Shown here: positions 1-40,832 of the stretch, one piece after another
Layout: each line of letters starts with the position of its first letter
How positions within the stretch are numbered: position 1 is the first letter of the stretch
Assembly: GCA_024742285.1 (NCBI GenBank)
Contig: JANSYR010000002.1
Location: 62,001-126,000, forward strand
Source of the DNA: a bacterium
Lineage (GTDB): Bacteria > Myxococcota_A > UBA9160 > UBA4427
Direction of reading: 5' to 3'
Length of the DNA stretch: 64,000 nucleotides
Made by a program: the position numbers and the translations under genes
Notes under the pieces: generated by a model
What the model was told of the DNA's origin: nothing
What the model saw: only the letters and a program-made list of their open reading frames with translations
Databases searched by the model: none

Positions 1-96
1 GAGTACGCACGCAGCGTACAGGCCGAGAGCTGGGTCGAGATGTTGTTCGACGATCGAGACGCCGTCCCGCATGTTCCGGAAGCTCCGCACGATTGA
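1..96 (+). CDS. 3' end of an unidentified gene (partial)
   Basis: Frame 1 is open from the window edge for 31 codons and stops with TGA at 94-96. The visible C-terminus ends in PHVPEAPHD. Too little is present to assign a family. It runs in the same direction as the small reading frame that follows. It could be chance, since a 31-codon open stretch is short. Confidence 0.3.
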   Translation, partial: EYARSVQAESWVEMLFDDRDAVPHVPEAPHD

Positions 97-133
97 TCCC
101 TAGCTGATCGGCGAGCTCTCCACGATTCGGAGC

Positions 134-322
134 ATGTCGATATACGACCCCTTCGCCCCTCTCAATCTACGGCAACTGGAAGAGGCTGAGCGCAAGGCGC
201 GCCGCGCACACCCGATCCTATGGTGCGTAGCCGAGGTGATCGTCTTCGTCCGAGATCAAGTGTCTTGGTGTAGGCACTGGAGGCAGCGCCGAGCGATCGG
301 CTACGACGGCCGGCCTCGCTGA
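134..322 (+). CDS. small hypothetical protein, 62 aa
   Basis: A 62-codon frame encodes a basic, Trp- and Arg-rich peptide with a central hydrophobic stretch (ILWCVAEVIVFV) that could be one membrane-associated helix. A GGAG lies only one base before the ATG, too close for a normal Shine-Dalgarno, so the start is doubtful. No family is recognised. It sits in the phage-like island between the partial gene at the edge and the convergent CoiA-like gene. Confidence 0.3.
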   Translation: MSIYDPFAPLNLRQLEEAERKARRAHPILWCVAEVIVFVRDQVSWCRHWRQRRAIGYDGRPR

Positions 323-355
323 TCTTCCCGGGTGCCTTGTGAGGCAGAAAGCGGC

Positions 356-1261
356 CTATCCCGCACCGTCCGCGCGCCGTTGGGACTCCTTAACCATCCG
401 AATCGCGCGTTTCAGGTTCTTTTCGCGACTCGCCCTGACGGCTTCTCGCTCCGCGGGATCTTGCAGGTCTCCGAGCGGTCGCCTTGGGGCGTCCGGGGTA
501 TCACTTGGTCCTCGCCAGTCGTAGAGTCCTTCAAGCTCAGCGATGTCTGCCTTGGCCTCTCGTTCGAAGGAGTCGATGAGCGGATCGGGGCCGATCTCGG
601 CGCTTGCGGAAGCGCTCCCATAGCGAGCAACGAACTCAGGCAGCGGGTACGGAGCGACGTGTGACCACTTCGCACCAGGGGGCCGATGAAGCCACCACAG
701 CATACGGTCCGAGCCATCGTCCGCCTTGTTGGACTCCTGGAAGCCGAAAAAGACCTCGACCTGGCTCTGGCCCCAGTCGCGTATCAACCGCTCGCCCTTG
801 GTGCGGATACGTCGCACTGAACCGTTCTCGGTAACCGGCTTGGTCTCTTCCCACCTACTAGGGAGAGCGGCCCTGTCGCCGTCGCGCCTCCAGCCGTTGA
901 CCACCCAGACGAGCGCCTCGTAGAAGGCCTCGCGTGAGCGGACTTCGGCGGGCTTGATGTAGGAGTACTGGAACTCCAGGACCTGCCCGAGAGGTGTCTT
1001 CATGTCCGCGATGTGGATCTCACCGTCGGGTGCTTCGTGTCGAATCTCCTGCCAGTCGGCCGGGAAACGGTCCTTCCAGGCACGATGCCACTCTGTCTCG
1101 GGCTCCCACCAGTGGTCGCAGTGCCGACGCCCCCTGTGCGCCCAGTGGTGCACTCTTTTCTCGCCGCATCGCGGAAGCATGGCCTGACCGCATCCGCGGC
1201 ATTCGCCGGGGAGCCCACGCTCGGCTTCGTGCCGTGCTCCGTTGACGAGGGCGAACCTCAT
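356..1261 (-). CDS. CoiA-like nuclease family protein
   Basis: The 301-residue protein opens with a zinc-ribbon-like element (C21-x2-C24, then H39 and H42 in HHWAH). This is followed by E55/E57 and H59, K63, D86 in HIAD and E96-x-Q98 in EFQYS. That order (CxxC, HxxH, E..H..K, D, ExQ, then R and Y in SREAFYEAL) matches the competence protein CoiA-like family, whose core is a PD-(D/E)XK-type nuclease fold. CoiA acts with incoming single-stranded DNA in Gram-positive competence, but many family members are phage- or island-borne and uncharacterised. The C-terminal third is charged and helical. The function here is inferred from motifs; its job in the island is unknown. Confidence 0.7.
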   Translation of the reverse strand: MRFALVNGARHEAERGLPGECRGCGQAMLPRCGEKRVHHWAHRGRRHCDHWWEPETEWHRAWKDRFPADWQEIRHEAPDGEIHIADMKTPLGQVLEFQYSYIKPAEVRSREAFYEALVWVVNGWRRDGDRAALPSRWEETKPVTENGSVRRIRTKGERLIRDWGQSQVEVFFGFQESNKADDGSDRMLWWLHRPPGAKWSHVAPYPLPEFVARYGSASASAEIGPDPLIDSFEREAKADIAELEGLYDWRGPSDTPDAPRRPLGDLQDPAEREAVRASREKNLKRAIRMVKESQRRADGAG

Positions 1262-1304
1262 GAAGCGCTCCTGTGCGGGGTAGGCGATACGGGACCATTG
1301 CTCG

Positions 1305-1922
1305 CTACCTGAGCGGGATGGGCTCCGGATGGTCGAAGTAGGTTACCTCGACATCGCCGGTGAGGTCCCCGATCAGGACCCACCGCGACTGATCGGGCTC
1401 GGTCGATCCGAATAGGTACACCTCGGCGAATGGCATGTCGGGAAGCTGCAAGGCGCCATAGTTGAGCGTGCCGACCCTATTGACGTGTACGGCGAGGATC
1501 GTTCTCTCTGTCCCTGAGTATCTGGTGGCAGCTGTTTCAAGGAGCGCCTGTAGGGTGATGCCGGGGTTTAGCTCGTCTGGCGGCAGCTCCTTAAGCTGCA
1601 CGGCTGCGAAGAGATCCCCATCATCGTGCTTCACCACGGTGACGAAATCATAGTCGTCATCCTCAACCGGCGCGTACCCGACCGTCAACCCGAGCCGCGA
1701 CGCGATGCCTAGCGTGAAGAAGGCGGCATCTCGGGCTTCGCGATGGACTGCCAGGCCGCGTGTTCTGAGGTTCGCGATGTCCCCAGGGACCTCTGAGAGA
1801 TCGAAGGCAAGCTGGACAGAGCGTAGCTTGCCGAGGACCACGGCTGGATCGTGATAGTCGTAGGCCGCCCAGCGCCTGAGTGTGATCTGTTCATTGACGT
1901 CTGTGCTCCGGCGGGCGGCCAT
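1305..1922 (-). CDS. hypothetical protein, 205 aa
   Basis: No family is recognised. The protein is soluble and mixed alpha/beta, without a signal peptide or membrane helix. A stretch around residues 88-112 (DYDFVTVV, then AAVQLKEL) has a D...QxK pattern that faintly recalls PD-(D/E)XK nucleases, which is weak evidence. It lies directly upstream of the CoiA-like gene on the same strand, with a gap of about 43 bases, so the two may be co-transcribed. The coding character is convincing (long open frame, no better overlapping frame). Confidence 0.55.
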   Translation of the reverse strand: MAARRSTDVNEQITLRRWAAYDYHDPAVVLGKLRSVQLAFDLSEVPGDIANLRTRGLAVHREARDAAFFTLGIASRLGLTVGYAPVEDDDYDFVTVVKHDDGDLFAAVQLKELPPDELNPGITLQALLETAATRYSGTERTILAVHVNRVGTLNYGALQLPDMPFAEVYLFGSTEPDQSRWVLIGDLTGDVEVTYFDHPEPIPLR

Positions 1923-2120
1923 GGTGTCCCCGTTTGTTCCGCTCTCAGTCCTTGGAGCAGGCCGCTACTCGTGAAGGCTTGCGGAGGTCTTTCCCTCCCT
2001 CGATACATGTAGCCCATGCTCGCCCGTGGGCATTTGAGCGAGCGCAGTCTACCCTCAGACAGTGACGCGGCTTGGAGGCAGTGGGCTGGGCGGGCGTCGC
2101 GCCTGCAACGAGGAGTAGCA

Positions 2121-2570
2121 ATGGGACTTCTACGAAGGATCTTTGGGGGCGCGAAAGAAGGGGCAAGACCTCCTGCCGAGATGGACGCCGAATTTGCTCA
2201 GAGAGTCGTGAACGACTTTGGTGCGGCCCTAGGCGATCGCAGTGGGGGCGCTGGAGGGGTCTCGGACACCCGCGAACTGCCTCACTCGAAGGAGACGATC
2301 AAGGCAGCCCTGATCTTCGCTCTCCGCTTCGCGAATGACCCGGTGTCTCGGGATCAGCTGAAGGCGGGATATGTCAGCCTCGCTGACTGGCAGGACGGAG
2401 TTGGCGATTCGGCTGGTGGGCTGAACCTCTCCCGGGCAGACCTCGACCGTGACCCCGTGGAACTAGCCAAGATGCTCCAGTCTCAGGCGATGCCGTCGCA
2501 AGAGTTGAGTGATCGAGTCGAAGCTGAGTCCCTCGCTCTCCAGGCCGAGCTGCGCCGGCTCGGCTACTGA
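2121..2570 (+). CDS. hypothetical protein, 149 aa
   Basis: The ATG at 2121 is chosen because AGGAG lies five bases upstream (2111-2115). An in-frame ATG at 2016 has no such site. The product starts MGLLRRIFGG, an N-terminus typical of small cytosolic proteins that touch the membrane surface, and is otherwise soluble and helical with a conserved-looking core (SKETIKAALIFALRF). No domain is recognised. It diverges from the hypothetical gene ending at 1922 and converges on the virion-protein gene, so it is a stand-alone unit within the island. Confidence 0.55.
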   Translation: MGLLRRIFGGAKEGARPPAEMDAEFAQRVVNDFGAALGDRSGGAGGVSDTRELPHSKETIKAALIFALRFANDPVSRDQLKAGYVSLADWQDGVGDSAGGLNLSRADLDRDPVELAKMLQSQAMPSQELSDRVEAESLALQAELRRLGY

Positions 2571-2658
2571 TCCGATGTCTGCACACACTCCCACGGCCTT
2601 GCTGCTTCCCTCATGGGCTCGATGAGGCAGGGCATAGGGCTTGCCTCCCGTTGTGCCA

Positions 2659-3168
2659 CTAGTCCTTGCGGTCCCTGGCCGAGACGGCATTGAGGTTGCC
2701 GAGGCCCTGCGAGATCCCACGTAGGCCCCCTTCGGTGGCGGCGATGCCAGCCCCCGGCCCCGGGTTGATGGCAGAGATGGAGCGGGCGGTGGCGGCATTC
2801 GCGCCCTGCGCCTCAAGCGCTAACTGCTCTTGGACCGCGTCTTCGTTCCGGTCGACGGCAGCGATGCCCGCGAGTTCTCGGCGCCTAATGTCTCGAGCGA
2901 GTGCCTTCACGGTTCTGCCACCGATACCGGCCTCGCCGGTGGCCACCTGGTTCACGCTCTGGGCGCGTTGAGCTGCGTCCCGGACTTCCTGCTTCTTCAG
3001 TCCGGCAGCACGAGCCTCCTGGATCTGTCGCTTGCGGATGGTGTTCTGCTGAATACGTCCGGAGCGGAGAGCAGAAGAAGCAGACCGGCTGGCCATCTTC
3101 TCCTGGGTCTTGGCAGACTCGGCGGCAAAGGTGGCGCCCAGTACGGCCATGGTCACGGGTTCACACAT
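2659..3168 (-). CDS. T7 gp14-like internal virion protein
   Basis: The 169-residue product begins MCEPVTMAVLGATFA, the signature N-terminus of internal virion (core) proteins of T7-like podoviruses. A long helical Gln/Ala/Arg-rich body follows. The central stretch ATGEAGIGGRTVKAL resembles the small-residue segment found in this family near GxxGxSV. gp14-type proteins are ejected with the genome and form part of the channel across the outer membrane. The start at 3168 has AGAGG seven bases upstream; a longer frame reaching 3372 has no support. It overlaps the end of the decayed GNAT-like frame by a few bases, which is typical phage gene packing. It is a strong indicator that the island is phage-derived. 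Confidence 0.75.
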   Translation of the reverse strand: MCEPVTMAVLGATFAAESAKTQEKMASRSASSALRSGRIQQNTIRKRQIQEARAAGLKKQEVRDAAQRAQSVNQVATGEAGIGGRTVKALARDIRRRELAGIAAVDRNEDAVQEQLALEAQGANAATARSISAINPGPGAGIAATEGGLRGISQGLGNLNAVSARDRKD

Positions 3169-3520
3169 ATAGGTACCTCTCGTATTGGATGAAGGGATGT
3201 TCCCCGACTCCGTAGTGGGGGTGGAGCGCGGTGAACGTGAAGCCGAGCCGGCTGAGTCACTGGGCGGCCGCGACGTTTCGGCGTTTGCGGTGGGCCACAC
3301 GGTCAGTGGGAAAACGGAAGACGTTCGGACGATCGGTCGAGACTCGGAAGTTGGGAGGGTCGAGGCAACCACGTTCGACCGCTTGGTACGTTCCGCGGAA
3401 AGACGGTTGCTCGGTCTCCGCGAGCGTCTGGGGGATCGCTATACGAATCTGACAGGCGAGTCTCTGGCCGACCGAGTGTTCGACGAAGACGGCCAAGGTC
3501 AGCTCGTCGAGGCGCGCTAG
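3161..3520 (-). pseudogene. decayed GNAT-like (gp13-position) phage gene
   Basis: On the minus strand one frame runs from about 3520 to a TGA at 3257-3259. It then continues open for 31 codons to a second TGA at 3161-3163, overlapping the gp14-like start. The codons after the internal TGA read LSRLGFTFTALHP and end GEHPFIQYERYLYV. This is very like the C-terminus of GNAT-like phage proteins, where a Trp precedes LxxLGF and PFxxFE ends the domain. A TGG-to-TGA change at the Trp explains the internal stop. The part before residue -10 does not look like a GNAT domain, so a frameshift is also likely. In T7-like phages gp13 lies just before gp14. Confidence 0.5.
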
Positions 3521-3549
3521 CTAGCGGGACTCGGGGCGTCGTGCATTCC

Positions 3550-3927
3550 TTAGCGCTTCGAGTCCATGCCGTTTGCGACGTACACCGCCGCGACGAACGC
3601 CCCAGCTGTGACCGCCACGGCCCAGTTGCCGCCCCACTCGGCATCAAGCACCAGCTGCGTAGGAATCAGCCACACCGCTAGGAAGATCGCAGCGGACTTC
3701 AACTGGTAGGCGGCGCCTCGTTGCGGGCCGTGCGGGCCAACGTCCTGAGGATGCTCGGTGGGGCTCGCCGAGCTGTTCGTGACGGGACGATCCGGCCGGT
3801 TCATGGGGCCTCCACAAGACGTGCATGAGTTTGCGGAGGGCTGGTTGCGTCTGCCGCACTGTTGGCAGAATCGAAGTCCGGTCTCGGGGGAGTGGTCAAC
3901 GGGCGTCATTGGGCACTCGTAGTCCAT
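3550..3927 (-). CDS. small zinc-ribbon membrane protein, 125 aa
   Basis: Starting at the ATG at 3927, the product has two CxxC pairs about 13 residues apart (FCQQCGRR then SCTSCGG), a zinc ribbon. A low-complexity linker and two hydrophobic segments follow near the C-terminus (AAIFLAVWLIPTQLV and VAVTAGAFVAAVYVA). Zinc-ribbon plus two-helix proteins of this size are common and mostly uncharacterised. The Shine-Dalgarno is weak, so the start could also lie at the Met six codons further in. It is on the same strand as its island neighbours. Confidence 0.55.
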   Translation of the reverse strand: MDYECPMTPVDHSPETGLRFCQQCGRRNQPSANSCTSCGGPMNRPDRPVTNSSASPTEHPQDVGPHGPQRGAAYQLKSAAIFLAVWLIPTQLVLDAEWGGNWAVAVTAGAFVAAVYVANGMDSKR

Positions 3928-3989
3928 CTGCAAGGATTCAGTGGAGATCGAGCCCCGCGCTAGGCGGAGCGTCGATCGGTTCGGGAGAG

Positions 3990-4205
3990 CTAGCCCGCGT
4001 ACAGTACTACCTCCCACGTCCCCCAGTGAACCCCCGAGCTGCGTCCTTCCTTCATCCAGGACAGCTCTCCTACGGGCCGATCGAGCCAGCGATTCAGCTC
4101 CAGGCGACGCTCGCCGGGGAGTCGTATGTCCAGCCGACACCCGTTGCCGCTGGTCGGGTTGACGTAGACGTAGGCCTCAATCTTCTTGCGCATCTGTTCA
4201 ACCAT
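3990..4205 (-). CDS. small hypothetical protein, 71 aa
   Basis: Two ATGs lie three bases apart (4211 and 4205). The second is preferred because AGAGGA sits at a normal distance before it. The product MVEQMRKKIEAYVYVNP... contains NPTSGNGCRLDIRL and ends WEVVLYAG, looking like a compact beta-rich domain. No family is recognised. It is the last gene before the tRNA fragment, so it is the outermost gene of the island. Confidence 0.45.
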   Translation of the reverse strand: MVEQMRKKIEAYVYVNPTSGNGCRLDIRLPGERRLELNRWLDRPVGELSWMKEGRSSGVHWGTWEVVLYAG

Positions 4206-4395
4206 GGTCATTCCTCTCTACACTGTCTCGTGCTTGCCGCTCACCATCGGGAACCACCCGGAACTGTCTCGGTGATCGACACTCTTCTGTGTGTGGGGAG
4301 ATTCGTGGGGACTTGGCTGTCCTTTGGTGTATCTGCCTGTCTTCTGAACTACGAAGAATCAGGCACTTAGCCACCCTGTAGACCCTCTGCTCTCC

Positions 4396-4440
4396 TTTAC
4401 ACCGAGGGGGTCCGGGGTTCGAGTCCCTGCGCGCCCACCA
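4396..4440 (+). pseudogene. 3' fragment of tRNA-Val(UAC), probable attachment site
   Basis: From the anticodon loop onward the sequence is a normal tRNA: loop TTTACAC (anticodon UAC), the 39-43 arm, variable GGGTC, T arm with TTCGAGT loop and paired five-base stem, acceptor strand CGCGCCC, A73 and CCA. The expected 5' half (GGGCGCG plus D arm) is absent. Upstream sequence does not fold into it, and position 31 mismatches position 39. The break therefore falls at about the anticodon stem. This is what remains on one side when an element integrates in a tRNA; the restored full tRNA should lie beyond the left edge of the window. Confidence 0.75.
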
Positions 4441-4448
4441 ATTGTGTC

Positions 4449-4506
4449 GGCGCTGCGCGCCTCTCGAAAGCCCGCTTCTTGCGGGCTTTCTTGCGCTGAG
4501 GGCTCG
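4449..4506 (+). repeat. extragenic hairpin repeat, copy 1 (after tRNA-Val fragment)
   Basis: The copy has a conserved left arm GCGCTGCGCGCCTCTCGA, an inner stem AAGCCCGC/GCGGGCTT and a right arm TTGCGCTGAGGGCTCG. The same arms occur at 31504, 63303 and 63377 around different inner stems. It probably also acts as the tRNA terminator. Confidence 0.8.
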
Positions 4507-4610
4507 GGTTCGGGACGGACTGCGTGGCTCTCGACTTGCGCTGAGGGCTCGGGTTCGGGACGGACTGCGTGGCTCTCGACTTGCGCTGGGGGCTCGGGGT
4601 CGGGAGGGCG
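4491..4610 (+). repeat. 45-bp tandem repeat, 2.6 copies
   Basis: Two perfect 45-base units (4491-4535 and 4536-4580) are followed by a diverged partial third (4581-4610). Each unit starts with the right arm of the hairpin repeat (TTGCGCTGAGGGCTCGG), so the array looks like amplification of that arm. There are no spacers, so it is not a CRISPR. The rest of the 4441-4885 gap holds the dyads listed below and no gene. Confidence 0.85.
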
Positions 4611-4716
4611 CTTTCGTTCTGCGCTGAGGTCTCCGTTGCGGGGCAGTGCCTCGAGTGGGGCCCGTCGACCTCGTCGGGGGCGGGCGTTGCCGGGTTCGCG
4701 ATCGCTTCGCGCGATC

Positions 4717-4740
4717 GGCGTGTGAAGGGCTTCACACGCC
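4717..4740. promoter_or_regulatory. inverted repeat containing GTGAA-N4-TTCAC
   Basis: A perfect 10-base stem (GGCGTGTGAA / TTCACACGCC) with a four-base spacer lies about 150 bases before the beta-helix gene. It could be an operator or an RNA hairpin. A second GTGAA-N4-TTCAC lies at 4781, and a third at 20316 before another PEP-CTERM gene. Confidence 0.45.
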
Positions 4741-4780
4741 GGGATTCATATCGGTCCTTTTCGTGAGAATCGACGCCCGT

Positions 4781-4794
4781 GTGAACCCGTTCAC
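4781..4794. promoter_or_regulatory. inverted repeat GTGAA-N4-TTCAC, second copy
   Basis: GTGAAC-CC-GTTCAC is the same half-site pair as at 4722-4735, centred 59 bases further on. Two like-spaced dyads on one side of a gene suggest an operator rather than a terminator. The regulator is unknown. Confidence 0.4.
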
Positions 4795-4885
4795 CGAGTC
4801 GCCCCGCCATCCGCCGTTCAATGTCCCTGTCGACGGAGTGGTCGACGTTCAATCGAACGCCTTCGAACGAAGGAGGGACACGAAC

Positions 4886-7351
4886 ATGGACCGAAGGAAT
4901 CGAAACGACGCGTGGACGCGACTTCGGCAGCAGGTCGGTCTGCTGCTCGCGCTTCTCGTATTGGCGCCGCTCTCCGCGGGAGCGGCCATCTTTTCCGTGA
5001 ACACGACCGACGACGACGCCGACGCCAACGCGGGCGACGGCTTCTGCTCGACGGGGACGCTGATCGTGCCGGTCGGCGGCGGACTCGCCTGGGAGTGCAC
5101 GCTTCGGGCTGCGATCGAGGAGGCCAACGCGAGCGCCGGATTCGACGAGATCCGCTTCACGGACAACCTCCCGACCGTCGCGGGGATCGTCGAGATCATC
5201 CCGGCCACGCAGCTCCCCTGGATCTACGACCCGGTCCGGATCGACGGCTACAGCCATCCCGACTACGACGGCTCGAGCCCGACTGCGCGACCGGTCATCA
5301 ACCTGCTCGGCAGCAGCGTCGCGACGGCGAGCGTCGCCGGTCTGACGCTCCTTCCGGGCGCGGACGGCTCCCAGATCCAGGGCCTCGCGATCGCCGAGTG
5401 GACGGGCGCAGGGATCCTGATCTCGCCCTTCTTCAGCCCCGCCCCGGGCAACATCCGGATCGAGGGCAACCACATCGGCGTCTGGCGCGGCGTCTTCTAC
5501 CGGGGCAATGACGGGGACGGGATCCACGTCGTCGGTTCGAACGGCAACACGATCGGAACGAACTGCACTGCGTTCGTGGGCTGCCCGGGACGCGGCAACC
5601 TGATCGCGACCAACGGTCGCCACGGCGTCTTCCTCGACGGGACGAGCTCGAGCAACACCGTCGCGGGCAACTTCATCGGCACCGACCGCTACGGCAACTC
5701 GACGTTCGTGCCCTTCGGCGGCTCGACGCCGAACGCGGAGTGGGGCGTGTTCGTCGGCCCCGATGCGGACGACAACGTGATCGGTGACTACGGCGGGATC
5801 TTCGTGCCGCCGAGCAACTCCACCGGGGTCGCCTCGGGCAACGTCATCTCGGGCAACCAGAGCGGTGGTGTCCGGATCGAGGGGGAGTTCAACCGGGTCT
5901 TCGCGAACCGGATCGGCACCAACGACGCCGGGACCGGCGCGCTCGCCAACCAGGGCCCCGGTGTGGTCGTCTTCGGCGACGACACGACGATCGGCAACGT
6001 CGGCCTCGGCAGCAACGTCATCTCCGGCAACACCTCGACGGGCGTCGTCTTCGAGACGCCGAGCGGCTTCACCCCGGTTCGCGTCCGCGTCCAGGGCAAC
6101 CGCATCGGCGTCGACGCGACCGGCAGCAGCCCGCTCGGCAACGGCGGCTCGGGGATCTCGCTGTGGGGCAACGATCACGAGATCCTCGACAACGTGATCG
6201 GCGGCAACGCGTTCGTCGGCATCAGCGACAGCAGCTACTCGAACGAGACCCTTCGCAACTACATCGGCACGAACGCCTCCGGCGCCGACCTCGGCAACAC
6301 GCTCTCGGGGATCTCGCTCTCCGGCGGCAACGTGCAGATCGGTACGGCCGGCAACGGCAACGTGATCGGCTTCAACGATCGCGGAATCACGATCGGAGGC
6401 TCGAGCTACGACATCACCGTCCAGGGCAACTGGATCGGCACCAACGCTTCCGGCGCCGATCTCGGCAACGTCAACGAGGGCATCTACGCGAGTGGCGCCG
6501 AGTACGTGATCGGCGGCTCCGGCGGGACGAGCAACGGCCTCGGCAACGTGATCGGTCACAACGGCGGCGTCGGGATCGAGGCCCGCGGCTTCGTGCCGAC
6601 GATCCAGGGCAACTGGGTCGGCACCAACGCTTCGGGCGACGACCTCGGGAACAGCTTCGAGGGCATCTACGCGGAGCCCAGCTCCGGCGGTCCCCCGAGC
6701 TCGATCGGTGCGTACGCCTCGGATGGCGACGCGACGGTCGCGGCCAAGGGCAACGTGATCGCCCACAACGCGCTCGAGGGCCTGGTGCTCGACGGCGTGC
6801 AGGACGTCGCGTTGCGCGGCAACCGGATGTGGAACAACGGCGGGATCGCGCTCGACCTCGGAGACAACTTCGAGACCGACAACGATCCCTCGGACTTCGA
6901 CGGCGGCGCCAACAACCTGCAGAACTTCCCCGAGATCGACACGGTCCACACCTACTGGAACGACGTGTCAGGAGCCCTGCACGTCCGCTACCGCGTGGAC
7001 GCGCTTCCGGCTGCGGGCGTGCAGTACCCGCTCTCGGTGGACTTCTACCTCCACGACCCGTGGCTCTCGCCCGGCGACCAGGCGCGCGCCTTCGTCGCGA
7101 GCGACACGTACGTGGCCGCGGAGGCGGGCAACTTCAAGGACGTCGTCCTGTTGCCGATGCCCGGTTCGATCGCGCCCAACGTGCACGGCTTCGAGTTCGG
7201 AGGTCTGCGGGCCACCGCGACCGATGCCGACGGCAACACGAGCGAGCTCTCGCGAGAGAACATCCCGGTTCCCGAGCCGGGCATGCCTCTGCTGCTCGCG
7301 GCCGGCGGAGCGGGCTTCGCTCTCCTCGGTCGGCGAGGGCGCCGCGCCTAG
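4886..7351 (+). CDS. secreted CSLREA/right-handed beta-helix protein with PEP-CTERM tail
   Basis: The ATG at 4886 has AGGAGG nine bases upstream; the longer frame from 4646 lacks a site. The 821-residue product has a signal peptide (hydrophobic LLLALLVLAPLSAGAA). It then has the CSLREA-type N-terminal element (FSVNTTDDD..., GDGFC, ECTLRAAIEEANA). A long series of beta-helix coils follows, each carrying GN.I.G or GTNASGADLGN. A beta-sandwich-like region of about 150 residues and the tail VPEPGMPLLLAAGGAGFALLGRRGRRA-type complete it: PEP motif, membrane helix, Arg cluster. The tail directs exosortase processing, so the protein is expected on the cell surface or in matrix. Beta-helices of this kind often bind or cut polysaccharide, but no catalytic residues are identifiable. 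A strong hairpin follows the gene. Confidence 0.85.
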   Translation: MDRRNRNDAWTRLRQQVGLLLALLVLAPLSAGAAIFSVNTTDDDADANAGDGFCSTGTLIVPVGGGLAWECTLRAAIEEANASAGFDEIRFTDNLPTVAGIVEIIPATQLPWIYDPVRIDGYSHPDYDGSSPTARPVINLLGSSVATASVAGLTLLPGADGSQIQGLAIAEWTGAGILISPFFSPAPGNIRIEGNHIGVWRGVFYRGNDGDGIHVVGSNGNTIGTNCTAFVGCPGRGNLIATNGRHGVFLDGTSSSNTVAGNFIGTDRYGNSTFVPFGGSTPNAEWGVFVGPDADDNVIGDYGGIFVPPSNSTGVASGNVISGNQSGGVRIEGEFNRVFANRIGTNDAGTGALANQGPGVVVFGDDTTIGNVGLGSNVISGNTSTGVVFETPSGFTPVRVRVQGNRIGVDATGSSPLGNGGSGISLWGNDHEILDNVIGGNAFVGISDSSYSNETLRNYIGTNASGADLGNTLSGISLSGGNVQIGTAGNGNVIGFNDRGITIGGSSYDITVQGNWIGTNASGADLGNVNEGIYASGAEYVIGGSGGTSNGLGNVIGHNGGVGIEARGFVPTIQGNWVGTNASGDDLGNSFEGIYAEPSSGGPPSSIGAYASDGDATVAAKGNVIAHNALEGLVLDGVQDVALRGNRMWNNGGIALDLGDNFETDNDPSDFDGGANNLQNFPEIDTVHTYWNDVSGALHVRYRVDALPAAGVQYPLSVDFYLHDPWLSPGDQARAFVASDTYVAAEAGNFKDVVLLPMPGSIAPNVHGFEFGGLRATATDADGNTSELSRENIPVPEPGMPLLLAAGGAGFALLGRRGRRA

Positions 7352-7395
7352 CGCATCAGGGAAGCGCTCGACGCGCATCGCGGTCGCGCCCTCCT

Positions 7396-7425
7396 GCGCC
7401 CGTCCGGCCTCCGCCGGGCGGGCGC
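7396..7425 (+). terminator. hairpin terminator after the beta-helix gene
   Basis: A 13-base-pair GC stem (GCGCCCGTCCGGC / GCCGGGCGGGCGC) with loop CTCC starts 45 bases after the stop codon. No U-run follows, so termination efficiency is uncertain. Confidence 0.5.
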
Positions 7426-7487
7426 AGCTGCGTTCGGGGCCCCGCGCGGGCTCGCGGAGCTAGACTCCCGCGAGCCCCGGAGATCCG

Positions 7488-8138
7488 ATGCCGACCTTTC
7501 CCGACCGACCCGTCCCGCCCCGCGCGTTCATCGAGGACGTGATTCCCTCGCTCTTCGCCGAGGTCGAGCTCGAGCCCGACGAGGAGGCGATCGATCTGCG
7601 CGTGGGCATCGTGCTGGAAGGCGAGGGCGGAGGCGAGTGGACTCTGCATTTCATCCAGGGCGAGCTCGGGGTGCGGGACGCGCGCGATCCCGAAGCCGAG
7701 CTCACGGTGATCCAGGCCGTCGCCGACTGGCGCGCGGCGATCTGGGAAGGCCGGCCAGCCCTCATCGCCGAGGGCGTCGAGCAGATCCGGAAGGGCGGCG
7801 CCGCCGAGCTGCGCCCGCCTTCCCCCGCCGACGGGCGCCCCCGCGTCGACCCGCTGAAGGGCATCTCGGATCTGCGCGGGCGGATCGAGATGGTGATCGA
7901 CGACGCGAACGACGCGCGCTGGGCCGTCGGGGTGCTCGTGGGCCCGGGCGCGATCCCGCCGACGCCGCAGGCCACGATCACCCTGGGCGCGGCCGAGGCC
8001 GAGTCGATCCGGACCGGCGTGCTCCACCCGCTCGAGGCGTTGATCTCGGGGCAGCTCCAGCTCGACGGGGATCTCGGACTGATCCTCCAGCTCCAGGCGG
8101 TCGCGATGACCCTCTCGATGGCGGCGAGCGGCCGGTAG
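7488..8138 (+). CDS. SCP2 sterol-binding-domain protein
   Basis: The 216-residue protein has a C-terminal segment ATITLGAAEAESIRTGVLHPLEAL...GQLQLDGDLGL that matches the end of the SCP2 fold. The half before it (GEWTLHFIQGELGV, AELTVIQAVADWRAAIWEG) looks like a second, diverged SCP2 core. SCP2 proteins carry acyl chains, sterols or other lipids in a hydrophobic tunnel. No signal peptide is seen, so it is cytosolic. GGAG lies five bases before the ATG. It stands alone between the beta-helix gene and tRNA-Asp. Lipid-handling enzymes nearby (GST, amidohydrolase) are suggestive but do not establish a pathway. Confidence 0.7.
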   Translation: MPTFPDRPVPPRAFIEDVIPSLFAEVELEPDEEAIDLRVGIVLEGEGGGEWTLHFIQGELGVRDARDPEAELTVIQAVADWRAAIWEGRPALIAEGVEQIRKGGAAELRPPSPADGRPRVDPLKGISDLRGRIEMVIDDANDARWAVGVLVGPGAIPPTPQATITLGAAEAESIRTGVLHPLEALISGQLQLDGDLGLILQLQAVAMTLSMAASGR

Positions 8139-8249
8139 AGGCCTCCGCGACCGGGCCGTTCGAGCCGCGTCGTCCGCCGGCGACGATCCCCTCGGAATCC
8201 CTAGCGGGGGCGCCCCAGTTCCGCTAAAAATGCGGCCCGATACGACGGC

Positions 8250-8326
8250 GGTCCGGTAGTTCAATTGGTTAGAGCACCGGCCTGTCACGCCGGAAGTTGC
8301 GAGTTCGAGTCTCGTCCGGACCGCCA
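8250..8326 (+). tRNA. tRNA-Asp(GUC)
   Basis: The 77-base cloverleaf is complete: acceptor GGTCCGG/CCGGACC, D arm TAGTTCAATTGG, anticodon loop CTGTCAC with GTC, T loop TTCGAGT, discriminator G and encoded CCA. A GCTAAAAA box at 8223-8230 may be the -10 element. ATTGT follows the CCA, as it does after both tRNA-Val sequences in the window. Confidence 0.97.
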
Positions 8327-8331
8327 TTGTA

Positions 8332-8440
8332 CGTCTTTGAGCAGAGGTGCCGGATTCGCTGCGCTCTGCTTCTATGGCGACGCTGTTTTGCGTCTTTGCG
8401 CAGGACCTCGGATTCGTTGCGCCCTGCTTCTATGGCGACG
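8332..8440 (+). repeat. two-copy palindromic repeat after tRNA-Asp
   Basis: Units 8332-8382 and 8391-8440 share CGTCTTTG at the start, GGATTCG in the middle and CTTCTATGGCGACG at the end. Each folds: GCAGAG/CTCTGC in the first, GCAGG/CCTGC in the second, so the stem changed on both sides. The first may end tRNA transcription. The rest of the 236-base gap up to the GST start holds nothing further that I recognise. Confidence 0.7.
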
Positions 8441-15030: not shown

Positions 15031-17919
15031 ATGACCGGATGCCAGCGACATCGAGTCGGGAAGGGCCGCGCAGCCGGGCTGCTGCTCGCGGTGGCTTTCC
15101 TGTTCGCGGCCTCCGCCGTCCACGGGAAGCCGGCGATCGATGCGCAATGGTCCTCGACGACCGGCATCGGCCGGCCGGGGGGGCACGTCATCGAGGCCGG
15201 CCCCGGCGACACCCTCGTCGCGAAGATCTTCCTCCGCGCCGACGAGCTCGGCATCAGCCGCTATTCGATCTCGGTCCGGTTCGACGAGGGGGGCGGCGAC
15301 GAGCTCGATCTGGTGGGCGTCTCGACGAGCCTGCCCCCGGGCTTCGACGCGGAGCTGCTTCCCAGCCCGGCCAGCCAGACCGACAGCACGCCCACCATGG
15401 CCGGCGAGATCCTGAGGATCGGCGCCGAGACCTTCGACGACTACGGCCCGGCGGTCACGAGCTTCGAGATCGCCGAGCTCACGTTCACCGTGAATACCCC
15501 CGTCACCGACGGATACGACCTGCGGATCGATCTGATCGATCCCGCCGACCGCATCGTGTCGAACGTGCTCGCACCCCGCGGCCCCGACGTTCGCGGCGGG
15601 CGGCTCGCGGTTCACGCGTCGTTGCCCCAGGGCCACGAGGTCGATCTCGACTTCATGGAGCTCGTCCACTTCACGAGCTTCGGGCCGGATCCTGCGACGG
15701 GCCTCGGTGAGGTGCCCTACGCCTACTACATCGGTCGCTTCGAGACGACGAACGACGAGTGGGTCGAACTCCTCAACGCGGTCGACCCCACCGGCGCGAA
15801 CCCGCTCGGCCTCTACGACCCCGAGCAGACCTCGTCCTCGAACGGCGGGATCGACTACTTCCCGGGCAACCCGGCCGGCGAGAAGTACGCGTCCAAGCCG
15901 AATCGCGGACGCTTTCCCGTCAACTTCGTCGACTGGTTCGACGCGCTCCGGTACGTCAACTGGCTCGAGAACGGCAAGATGGACGGGGGGGACACCGAGG
16001 TCGGTTCGTACAACCTCCTCACGTCGCCGGTCACGGATCTCGGCGGCGCGTTCGGGCTGCCGACCGAGAACGAGTGGTACAAGGCCGCCTACGGACGTCC
16101 GATCGACGGCTTCTGGTGGCTCTACCCGATCCAGTCCAACTCGCCCCCCGGCGTCGCCACCTGCAACTTCTCGACGCGGACGGTGAACAACCCGTCGAGC
16201 ACGACGGTCAACTATTCCTCGGCCTGCGGCTATCCCGTCGAGGTCGGCACGGCGCGCGCGGGTCAGACCACGAACGGCACCCAGGACCAGGCGGGCAACG
16301 TCTCCGAGTGGATCTACGCGCTCTCGGGCGACGGACTCTTCGCGAAGCACCGGGGAAGCCACTTCGACGAGTACACGGCGCCGCTCGAGAGCACCTTCGG
16401 CGGGACCTTCTCGCCGACCGGCACGAGCACCGACTTCATCGGCTTCCGGATCGTGCACCGGCGCGACAGTCCGGACTCGGACGCGGACGGAATCCAGGAT
16501 CGGTTCGGTGCGAGCACCTTCGACATCTGCTTCGGCGGCCAGAACTTCGGCTGTCGGGACAACTGCAACGACGTCCGGAACCCCGACCAGACGGACACCG
16601 ACGGCGACGGCGTCGGTGACGCCTGCGACACCTGCCCCTACGACTGGAATCCCCTCGAGACCTTCGACCTCTTCGGCGACGACGAGTTCTTCATCCCCGG
16701 GCAGCACGATACGGACGGGGACGGACTGGGCGACATCTGCGACGACGACGTGGACGGGGACGGAATTCCCAACGAGAGCGATCCCGACGCGGACGGGGAT
16801 GGGGTGATGGACTCCGGTGCGCCCTGGATCTGCGGGCAGGAGCCGTCCGGCCAACCGTGCAACGACAACTGCCCGGGGATCCCGAATTCCGCGCAGTTCG
16901 ACTGCGACGTGGACGGATTCGGCGATCAGTGCGACTACCGGCTGGACGTCGGGGCGGGGCCCGATCTCGACGGCGACGGCGTCGGCGACCGGAACGACGT
17001 CTGCCCGGGCTTCCTCGATCCCGACCAGAGCGACTTCGATCGCGACGGGTTCGGGGACGTGTGCGATCTCTGCCCGACGGTCAACGAGGAGATCCAGATC
17101 GACGCGGATCTCGACGGCGTCGGCGACGCCTGCGACGTCTGCCCCTTCGACTACGACCCAGGCCAGGCGGATGCGGATCTCGACGGGGTCGGCGACGCCT
17201 GCGATCTCGGCCTCGACACGGACGGCGATGGCGTGCCCGACGCCGACGACGGGTGTCCGCTGGTCTTCGAGACGTCGTCGGCGGACACCGACGGGGACGG
17301 GATCGGGGACGCCTGTGACCCGACGGTCGAGGTCTCGCAGACGGACTTCATGGACGCGACCGGCTACAACGGCTGCAACTTCGACTCCGACAACGACGAG
17401 TTCTTCGAGACCGCAGCGGGAGGCTCGACGTTCCAGTGGCTCTACAACGGGAGTGATGCAACTGGCGAGTGCTTCCTGACGGGCGACCTGGACGAGAACG
17501 GCTTCGTACCGTGGGGCTACGTTCCGACGGGTCCCTCCGGTGCGGACTGCTGCGTATACAGCTACGCGCAGGACGAGAGCGACCCGAATCCCTCGGTCGT
17601 GATGGTGACCGTCGAGTTCGGCGGCGCGATGGTCGACACGACGAACTCGGACGCGGACTTCGTCTACGACACCTGCGACAACTGCCCCGCGATCACGAAC
17701 GCCGACCAGGCCGATCTCGACGGAGACGAGGTCGGCGACGTCTGCGACAACTGTCCGAACGATCCGAACCCGAGCCAGGCGGACACCGACGGCGACGGGA
17801 TCGGCGACGCCTGCGACGCGATCCTCGGTCCGGAGCCCGACGGGCTCACGATGTTCTGGATCGGGTTGCTCGCGGCGGCGGCTCTCGCTCGCGTCCGTGT
17901 TCGCGCCGCGATCGGCTAA
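15031..17919 (+). CDS. surface protein: FGE-like domain, thrombospondin type 3 repeats, PEP-type tail
   Basis: The ATG at 15031 follows GAGGGG. The 962-residue product has a signal peptide, then a cohesin-like beta domain (about residues 40-200). A formylglycine-generating-enzyme-like domain follows (about 215-490; PVNFVDWFDALRYVNW, LPTENEWYKAAYG, DQAGNVSEWIYAL, IGFRIVH). At least ten Ca-binding DTDGDGxGDxCD repeats come next, then a C-terminal tail with GPEPDG, a hydrophobic helix and Arg residues. The FGE region lacks the paired catalytic cysteines expected after the RGGSW-type motif, so it is probably a binding fold, not an enzyme. The tail resembles an exosortase signal. It lies between tpsA (divergent) and the CHAT gene (convergent). 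Confidence 0.85.
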   Translation: MTGCQRHRVGKGRAAGLLLAVAFLFAASAVHGKPAIDAQWSSTTGIGRPGGHVIEAGPGDTLVAKIFLRADELGISRYSISVRFDEGGGDELDLVGVSTSLPPGFDAELLPSPASQTDSTPTMAGEILRIGAETFDDYGPAVTSFEIAELTFTVNTPVTDGYDLRIDLIDPADRIVSNVLAPRGPDVRGGRLAVHASLPQGHEVDLDFMELVHFTSFGPDPATGLGEVPYAYYIGRFETTNDEWVELLNAVDPTGANPLGLYDPEQTSSSNGGIDYFPGNPAGEKYASKPNRGRFPVNFVDWFDALRYVNWLENGKMDGGDTEVGSYNLLTSPVTDLGGAFGLPTENEWYKAAYGRPIDGFWWLYPIQSNSPPGVATCNFSTRTVNNPSSTTVNYSSACGYPVEVGTARAGQTTNGTQDQAGNVSEWIYALSGDGLFAKHRGSHFDEYTAPLESTFGGTFSPTGTSTDFIGFRIVHRRDSPDSDADGIQDRFGASTFDICFGGQNFGCRDNCNDVRNPDQTDTDGDGVGDACDTCPYDWNPLETFDLFGDDEFFIPGQHDTDGDGLGDICDDDVDGDGIPNESDPDADGDGVMDSGAPWICGQEPSGQPCNDNCPGIPNSAQFDCDVDGFGDQCDYRLDVGAGPDLDGDGVGDRNDVCPGFLDPDQSDFDRDGFGDVCDLCPTVNEEIQIDADLDGVGDACDVCPFDYDPGQADADLDGVGDACDLGLDTDGDGVPDADDGCPLVFETSSADTDGDGIGDACDPTVEVSQTDFMDATGYNGCNFDSDNDEFFETAAGGSTFQWLYNGSDATGECFLTGDLDENGFVPWGYVPTGPSGADCCVYSYAQDESDPNPSVVMVTVEFGGAMVDTTNSDADFVYDTCDNCPAITNADQADLDGDEVGDVCDNCPNDPNPSQADTDGDGIGDACDAILGPEPDGLTMFWIGLLAAAALARVRVRAAIG

Positions 17920-38596: not shown

Positions 38597-39295
38597 CTAG
38601 CGTGCGAGATCGACGATCTCCCGCTCCCAGGCCTGCGTCGAGGCGCATTCGATCGGCACGCCCCGGAGCAGCTGTCGATCCGGGAGGCGGGTCGTGAGGC
38701 GGAACGAGGCGTCGTGCGTCCCCCAGCTCGCCGTGTCCTGGGGCCTCCCCAGGAAGTCGGTCGCGTGGACTGCGCCGCTCTGCTGCATGCGGAGCTCGAA
38801 TCGCGCGTTGGCCTCGACGCGCGTCCGGTCGCCCTCCGGCTCGAGAAGGATCGACAGTCGACCGACCCGCCCGCTCACGAGGTGGTCGATCTCGGCGAGG
38901 CCGAGGGTCGAGCGCCGCCGGAACTTCGACGACTTCTTCGGCTCGAAGCGCCAGGGGGCGCCGTTCACGGAGATCTCGAGGGTTCCGCAGTCGATCAGGC
39001 GCTCGAGCCGGCCGGCGTTCGTGTCGTCGAGGCCGTCGCGGGCGAGGTCGATCGTGATCAGCCCCGAGTCCTTCGACACCTGCTGGACGTCGAAGACGCT
39101 CTGCGCGAGTCCCCGGACGATTCGCGCCCAGGCGTCGTCGAAGTCCCGATCGACCACCGCGACGTGGTTCGTGGCCCCGGAGGAAGGGGGCGTGTAGACG
39201 GGGACGGCCTCGATCGAGGCGCAGCCGAACGAGAGCGCGGCGAGCATCATCACGGCGTGGGGAATGAGTCCCGCCAAGAGGGAGGGGCGTCGCAT
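38597..39295 (-). CDS. lipoprotein of unknown function (BamC-like size)
   Basis: The 232-residue product has a lipobox LSFGC after a hydrophobic stretch, so it is lipidated at that Cys and anchored in a membrane. The mature part contains DRDFDDAWARIVRGLAQ, then SGLITIDLAR and later RTRVEANARFEL. This pattern resembles the helix-grip repeats of BamC/NlpB-like lipoproteins, but the likeness is weak. It is monocistronic, transcribed away from rpsB. Confidence 0.7.
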   Translation of the reverse strand: MRRPSLLAGLIPHAVMMLAALSFGCASIEAVPVYTPPSSGATNHVAVVDRDFDDAWARIVRGLAQSVFDVQQVSKDSGLITIDLARDGLDDTNAGRLERLIDCGTLEISVNGAPWRFEPKKSSKFRRRSTLGLAEIDHLVSGRVGRLSILLEPEGDRTRVEANARFELRMQQSGAVHATDFLGRPQDTASWGTHDASFRLTTRLPDRQLLRGVPIECASTQAWEREIVDLAR

Positions 39296-39695
39296 CGGGA
39301 TTCTCCTTCGGTCTCGTGCTGGCTACGGCTGTGTCGCAGACTCGCTTCGCTGGGACAAGAGCGTTCTCCCGCAGCGTCGGGCCGCCGCTCTCTCGTAGGG
39401 GGCGCGAATGGCCGATCCTGTTCCGACGGGGCCTTCGCGGCGCGGATCGCGCGAGGGGTGATCCCGCCGCGGGTGTCTGCTAAACACCCGCCATCTCACA
39501 CGTTCCGAGTCACCCCGGCGGTGCCTCGAGCGAGGCGAGACGTCTTTCTTCCGGCGGGCCGAGTGGTCCACGCGTGGAAGGCGGCCCGGGACAATCCAGT
39601 CCGGACGGGGCGCAGCGAAGGCGGATCGGGCTCGATTCGAGGTCGGGGAGTAGGACGGCTCGGGGCGGAGGACCAACCGCCAAAGGAGAATTCCG
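39296..39695 (+). promoter_or_regulatory. rpsB leader region
   Basis: The 400 bases hold no gene. A hairpin GCGGGTGT/ACACCCGC (39469-39491) contains TAAACA in its loop and right arm; the same box is the -10 of the rplM promoter. No good -35 is visible before it, so the promoter assignment is tentative. If transcription starts there, the rpsB leader is about 200 bases, long enough for autogenous control by S2. Confidence 0.4.
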
Positions 39696-40832
39696 ATGTC
39701 CGAGACGCCGGTCGCGCCCGAAGAGGCCACCGAGACGACCCCCGCTGCGCCCGCAGCCCCCGAGACCCCTGCCGCCGCGACCGATGCGGCCGCCGCCCCT
39801 TCCCCCGCCGCCGACACTTCGGCCGAGAGCGAGCTGGGCCAGGCGCTCAAGGAGCAGGAGATCTCGATCCGTGCCCTGATCGAGGCCGGTGTGCACTACG
39901 GCCACCAGCCCGGTCGCTGGAACCCCCTGATGCGCTCCTACATCTTCGGTGAGCGCAACGGCACCCATATCATCGATCTCGACCAGACCCTGCCGCTCCT
40001 CAAGGAAGGCCTCGACTTTCTCCGCGAAACCACGGCCGCCGGTGGCTCGGTGTTGTTCGTAGGGACCAAGCGCCAGGCCCAGGGTTCGATCATGGCCGAG
40101 GCGAGGCGCGCCGGTCAGCACTACGTGAACAACCGCTGGCTCGGCGGCATGCTCACGAACTGGAAGACGGTCAAGAAGTCGATCGATCGATACAACCAGT
40201 ATCTCGACATCCTCGGCAACGAGGAGAAGCGTGCGGAGCTCTCCAAGAAGGAGCAGTCGAGCATGCAGCGCGCCGTCGACAAGTACGCGAAGTCGCTCGA
40301 GGGCATCCGCTCGATGGAACGCCAGCCCGACGCGATCTTCATCATCGACGTCGGCAAGGAGTCGATCGCCGTGCAGGAGGCCAAGCGCCTGCACATCCCG
40401 ATCGTCGGCATCGTCGACACGAACAACAGTCCCCGGGACATCGACCTCGTCGTGCCCGGCAACGACGACGCGCTCCGCGCGATCGATCTCTACTGCGTGG
40501 CCGCGGCGAACGCCTGCCGCGAGGGCTACGACCAGCACCAGCAGGAGCTCGTCGCCCAGCGCAGCAGCCAGCCGGCCAAGCAGGCGGCGGGTGAGGCGGG
40601 ACCGGCCAGCGGCCGCCGCGTCGTCGAGATCAAGCAGCAGCCGCGCCGTGGCCGAGGCGGCCGCGACGGCGAGCGCTCGGGCGGTGGCAAGAGCTACTCC
40701 GCGGGCGGCGACAAGGAAGACGCCTCTGCGACCAAGGCTCCCGCGGCGACCAAGGCTCCTGCGGCGGCAGCCAAGGCCGAGACTCCGGCTCCGGCGGCCG
40801 CACCCGCCGAAGGTGGCGAAGAGAGCAAGTAG
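39696..40832 (+). CDS. rpsB: 30S ribosomal protein S2, extended at both ends
   Basis: AGGAG precedes the ATG. The conserved S2 core runs from about residue 55 to 280 (ALIEAGVHYGHQPGRWNP, FVGTKRQAQ, YVNNRWLGGMLTN, VVPGNDDALRAIDLYC). The N-terminus carries about 50 extra residues almost purely of Ala, Pro, Glu and Thr. The C-terminus adds about 95 residues, basic and Gly/Arg-rich, then Ala/Pro/Lys-rich. E. coli S2 has 241 residues, this one 378. S2 joins the small subunit late and holds S1. It is the first gene of the rpsB-tsf-pyrH-frr-uppS-dxr-rseP-tsaB cluster. Confidence 0.97.
   Translation: MSETPVAPEEATETTPAAPAAPETPAAATDAAAAPSPAADTSAESELGQALKEQEISIRALIEAGVHYGHQPGRWNPLMRSYIFGERNGTHIIDLDQTLPLLKEGLDFLRETTAAGGSVLFVGTKRQAQGSIMAEARRAGQHYVNNRWLGGMLTNWKTVKKSIDRYNQYLDILGNEEKRAELSKKEQSSMQRAVDKYAKSLEGIRSMERQPDAIFIIDVGKESIAVQEAKRLHIPIVGIVDTNNSPRDIDLVVPGNDDALRAIDLYCVAAANACREGYDQHQQELVAQRSSQPAKQAAGEAGPASGRRVVEIKQQPRRGRGGRDGERSGGGKSYSAGGDKEDASATKAPAATKAPAAAAKAETPAPAAAPAEGGEESK

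Follow-up and report, generated by a model that had tools for sequence, protein, structure and literature searches.

A displaced tRNA-Val(UAC) 3' fragment and a putative 14-kb mobile island in a bacterium of the Myxococcota_A

Islands in tRNA genes and the displaced tRNA-Val fragment

The closest described systems are the islands collected by Islander, for which, according to the part of the account used here (PMC4383910), an intact tRNA gene together with a displaced 3' fragment is the signature, and among which the anticodon class comprises 2083 of 3919 islands. The sizes given there peak at 13.6 kb for tRNA islands and at 39.9 kb for prophages, the former peak being discussed with regard to satellite phages. 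A second described group, the PICIs, is characterized in the consulted part of PMC6092414 by a length of around 15 kb, by a primase or replication gene and sometimes terS, by phage-dependent induction, by interference and by packaging into the particles of a phage, and by a definition that leaves no room for phage structural or lytic genes.

The stretch studied here, referred to as the window, comprises 64,000 nucleotides (positions 62001-126000 of the contig JANSYR010000002.1, in the following C2) of a genome of 6.55 Mb in 56 contigs; features to its left are given in coordinates of the record L010, from which window positions are obtained by subtracting 12,000 (Table 1). What is read at window 4392-4440 is tRNA-Val(UAC) without its 5' part, beginning with the anticodon loop and ending with CCA. 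Its partner in the genome is situated at C2:52354-52402 (49 bp at 98%, E 2.9e-17) and belongs to an intact tRNA-Val(UAC) called by ARAGORN at C2:52326-52402, in the orientation of the fragment, which thus follows 14,038 bp downstream on the same contig. Aligned from the 3' end, the two copies share 45 identical bases (4396-4440), differ at position 31, agree again at the next three positions, and then lose all similarity. At 4392-4440, as is expected for a fragment, no tRNA is called either by ARAGORN, whose three tRNAs of the window lie in other places, or by Rfam, which for the first 12 kb reports tRNA-Asp only. Concerning protein-coding frames, the plus-strand frame nearby begins after the fragment, with its domains farther on, and a long minus-strand frame (4397-6949, outside the domain scan) overlaps it.

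The half tRNA is almost certainly the right end of a mobile island of 14,038 bp (C2:52403-66440, beginning where the intact tRNA stops and ending at window 4440) integrated in the tRNA-Val(UAC) gene. A first-pass annotation made from the raw sequence had seen a truncated tRNA at 4380-4450 with a break near position 31 and a 5' half exchanged for unrelated sequence with phage-type genes, and had expected to the left, within about 5-60 kb, an intact copy adjoining an integrase. The range holds the fragment proper (4392, or 4396 for the exact part, to 4440), the first mismatch at 4395 is tRNA position 31, the intact copy was found 14.0 kb to the left, and a complete tyrosine integrase begins 183 bp downstream of it; within the window, the phage-type part amounts to one recognised virion-type gene (gp14). 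Observation and prediction were thus right in every point that could be checked. What began as a guess from raw sequence now has a map, in which the ends of the island are exact, the empty site serves as a control and sites of the integrase are predicted, and this in a lineage that has been little studied.

As in the islands described in the consulted part of PMC4383910, the intact gene and its cognate fragment lie on one replicon in the same orientation, the 3' fragment lies downstream and reaches the gene end, a tyrosine integrase lies inside, the length is within 2-200 kb and near 13.6 kb, and the break belongs to the anticodon-loop class; the architecture is no different, whereas host and cargo are new. 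The fragment is the end of an ordinary, textbook tRNA island, of which only the mixture of phage parts is mildly unusual.

Table 1. Coordinates of the features at the tRNA-Val(UAC) locus
Feature	Position	Strand	Remarks
Tyrosine integrase	L010 2585-3661	+	Phage_integrase domain 85 bits; phrog_1 225 bits
HTH_17/excisionase-like gene	L010 3639 to ~3998	-	family matches; putative excisionase role
122-aa protein, borderline T7-type DNA packaging (small terminase) match	L010 4188-4556	-	PF11123, 27.0 bits, cut-off 27.5
280-aa protein	L010 4553-5395	-	
RepB-type primase, 1076 aa	L010 5470-8700	-	weak family matches and homologues
Second tyrosine recombinase	L010 9151-10179	+	
Right-hand 4.4 kb of island	window 1-4391		remainder left of window
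CoiA-N-like protein, island cargo	window 356-1261	-	weak, under cut-off
205-aa protein, island cargo	window 1305-1922	-	without family match
184-aa open frame	window 2016-2570	+	without family match
T7 gp14-type internal virion protein, 169 aa from ATG	window 2659-3168 (L010 14659-15168)	-	PF24072 55.1 bits, cut-off 27; phrog_805 38 bits
Zinc-ribbon-motif frame	window 3550-4140	-	under cut-off; true start probably internal
GTGGGG pair 12 bp apart, predicted integrase arm-type sites	window 4293-4310	+	matches two pairs at other island end
TTCTGAA, possible accessory site	window 4342-4348	+	other copies C2:52409, 52424, 52516
Displaced tRNA-Val(UAC) 3' fragment, distal attachment core (attR)	window 4392-4440	+	45 bp exact from 4396; one mismatch at 4395 (tRNA position 31)
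Original downstream sequence of host tRNA-Val gene	window 4441-4508	+	terminator-like hairpin ~4467-4491; aligns directly behind intact tRNA in G023 and G028
Conserved host flank: SCP2-domain gene and tRNA-Asp(GUC)	window 7478-8335	+	after tRNA-Val in empty site

Gene content and class of the island

A complete T7-like prophage is marked by portal, capsid and large terminase, and an integrative conjugative element by a relaxase and type IV secretion genes. Searches of the island frames with Pfam (13 frames) and PHROGs (12 frames), from which frames below 120 aa were mostly left out, recognised neither portal, capsid nor large terminase, and revealed no relaxase or type IV secretion genes; the only PF12236 portal of the genome is situated at C2:144642, outside the island. 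In the island integrase, the residues R, K, HxxR and Y, which we take to be the catalytic ones, are legible, and neither of the two recombinases attains the XerC or XerD cut-offs of NCBIfam. PADLOC assigned none of ten proteins to a family.

The gp14-type gene, whose open frame extends on to window 3372, occurs in a single copy and in this genome alone among the 377 genomes of the phylum, which likewise holds for the 280-aa protein. Its nearest phage proteins, at 28-30% identity, are those of two Rhizobium phages, and solved structures yielded nothing useful for it. Relatives of the RepB-type primase are found in the genomes G063, G089 and G053, where they sit in different elements; in viral_contigs, relatives of neither primase nor gp14 were found. 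For the terminase-like protein, phage records gave no match and solved structures nothing useful, and its structure model was too poor for searching (mean pLDDT 57.7).

Compared with the PICIs as characterized in the consulted part of PMC6092414, the island shares the length of around 15 kb, the integrase, a DNA-binding regulator, the primase and a possible terS; it differs in carrying the virion gene gp14 and in having no AlpA or Stl match. Because the group is defined there without structural genes, gp14 keeps the island from being filed as a PICI, although it may still work like one. With T7-like podoviral prophages, the island has the gp14-type internal virion protein and the borderline T7-type small terminase in common, whereas portal, capsid, scaffold and large terminase are unrecognised here and the island has a third of the usual size.

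There is about an even chance that the island is phage-satellite-like, in which case it would replicate by its own primase and borrow the particles of a helper; the borderline small-terminase match with its poor model, the structural gene gp14 and the lack of a similarly composed island in the other genomes weigh against this reading. Possible, if rather short of probable, is that it represents what is left of a T7-like (podoviral) prophage after the loss of most virion genes, with no satellite life cycle of its own; the two T7-type genes point in this direction, as do several frames without matches, a coding cover by the listed frames of only 84%, and again the lack of a second such island among the 377 genomes. 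The integrase, the 1076-aa primase and the second recombinase are, however, all full-length open frames, the terminase-like gene adjoins primase and regulator, outside any virion block, and 14 kb is near the tRNA-island peak and not the prophage peak of the distribution in the consulted part of PMC4383910. What probability remains falls to other kinds of island.

A more specific form of the satellite reading, which we put forward as doubtful, would make the island a satellite for T7-like helpers, with its own primase, a T7-type small terminase that would direct packaging, and its own gp14 ejection protein that would aid DNA delivery. If this were true, a satellite with its own part of an ejection apparatus would be a new sort. 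Our literature search found no account of satellites with an internal virion protein. The position of gp14 beside a satellite-like gene set makes podovirus-dependent satellites testable here.

Island ends, integration and the empty site in relatives

The island has a GC content of 62.6%, whereas the flanks have 66-70%. In the 18-kb stretch searched for motifs, pairs of GTGGGG with a spacing of 12 bp occur at the island ends only, all in one orientation (L010 2493, 2556 and 16293, i.e., C2:52493, C2:52556 and window 4293); against these three pairs, 200 dinucleotide shuffles of the stretch gave none. Five copies of the single motif GTGGGGA are likewise all situated at the island ends; their count alone is not unusual (shuffled mean 3.0), but their placement is. 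Another motif, TTCTGAA, is present in four copies in the stretch, all of them at the two island ends. The GTGGGG pairs look like the arm-type sites of a lambda-like integrase, by which they would be bound. The first-pass annotation had named an intact tRNA without relation to the left flank as speaking against an island, which is contradicted by the occurrence of these predicted arm sites at both ends.

Concerning integration, the tyrosine integrase of the island would have recombined an attP carrying a copy of the tRNA-Val(UAC) 3' part with the host tRNA gene. We infer that the exact point of crossover probably lay in the 7-nt anticodon loop TTTACAC, which, between the repeats of the anticodon stem, would form a natural overlap region. 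At the left end, this would have produced an intact tRNA gene out of the host 5' half and the island 3' half, with the integrase adjoining; at the right end, by the logic of integration, the fragment displayed in the window would be the original chromosomal 3' half, displaced by 14 kb. In viral_contigs, the tRNA core was not found.

The 3' end of lon is present in all 30 genomes of the family that were searched, and tRNA-Val(UAC) in 29 of 29 loci of relatives. Sequence of the right flank past the tRNA is matched in 10 of these 29 loci and island DNA in none, the loci reaching up to around 1.5 kb past the match and less at contig ends. The empty site itself is observed in two genomes of the same genus, G023 and G028, in which lon is followed by a tRNA-Val identical over 77 nt, and from there an unbroken match continues into the right flank of the window; in G023, the SCP2 gene and tRNA-Asp come next.

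It is very improbable that an assembly error attached a stray tRNA end to a flank not its own, at 4391 as the first-pass annotation had considered: the genome is a 56-contig assembly and an exact repeat of 45 bp can mislead short-read assemblers, but G023 and G028 have both flanks side by side in unchanged order and orientation, and within the 18 kb the GTGGGG pairs are confined to the two proposed ends. Still more improbable is that the fragment stems from a second tRNA-Val gene that decayed without connection to any island, since, although tRNA pseudogenes exist, it has 45 exact bases and breaks off sharply at position 31, the intact copy is followed by an integrase, and relatives possess one tRNA-Val(UAC) there with this flank directly after it.

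To the right of the island end, two further features were noted. A direct repeat with a unit of 45 bp occupies window 4490-4597 (54 bp exact overlap at C2:66490 and 66535). A beta-helix protein with a PEP-CTERM-like end (window 4646-7351) is encoded in the interval that separates the SCP2 gene from the island; the alignment with the flank of G023 skips it (from window 4508 to 7478), and the gene therefore looks like a separate gain.

Related integrases and other mobile elements

At E <= 1e-30, the integrase has matches in 3 of 377 genomes of the phylum, this genome included. In G089, which belongs to the same order and another family, an integrase of 49% identity is situated directly behind lon and tRNA-Val(UAC), and the DNA similarity stops exactly at the tRNA end. 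The island there (DOUU01000154.1; the record L082, G089:C237, is the same contig and was not counted as an extra case) shares with the present one the site behind lon, the integrase clade and an HTH gene after the integrase. Its other visible genes, up to the end of the contig at 7.8 kb, have nothing in common with those of the present island and, unlike the latter, it has no GTGGGG pairs. For the integrase of G009 (34%), no tRNA was found in its locus, and the remoter relatives, which come from named genomes and from viral contigs, are situated near various other tRNAs or none, so that only the 49% relative argues for tRNA-Val as the target.

To the right of the window end, at a distance of 3.2 kb and more, a tandem array at tRNA-Arg(CCG) extends over C2:129220-188862, with the intact gene at 129220 and 3' fragments at 171133 (47 bp), 188539 (45 bp) and 188836 (27 bp). 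Its first unit (41.9 kb) combines an integrase with podoviral genes of the portal, capsid and internal virion types; its second (17.4 kb) has its own integrase, an excisionase-like gene, an endolysin-like gene and a primase. A second tRNA-Arg(CCG) called by ARAGORN at C2:171103-171179 has an unrelated 5' half and is a displaced 3' fragment, so that counting it would overstate the tRNAs of the genome by one. The resident podoviral prophage (C2:129,297-171,179) was considered as helper of the island; this is not supported, its internal virion protein being of another family (phrog_418) and no island protein except the integrases matching it better than E 0.1.

In G063, an element adjoining tRNA-Ala(GGC), of which no repeat was found within 20 kb, carries an integrase, an excisionase-like gene and a broken RepB-type primase related to that of the island (L047, i.e., G063:C55, 2414-9656), as well as a phrog_3742 protein; the podoviral prophage, too, has a member of this family, next to its capsid gene. 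In G020, of the same family as the present genome, a clear T7-type packaging protein (15119-15325, 60.5 bits) and a portal (38842-40224) are situated on one contig, C125, and likely belong to a podoviral prophage.
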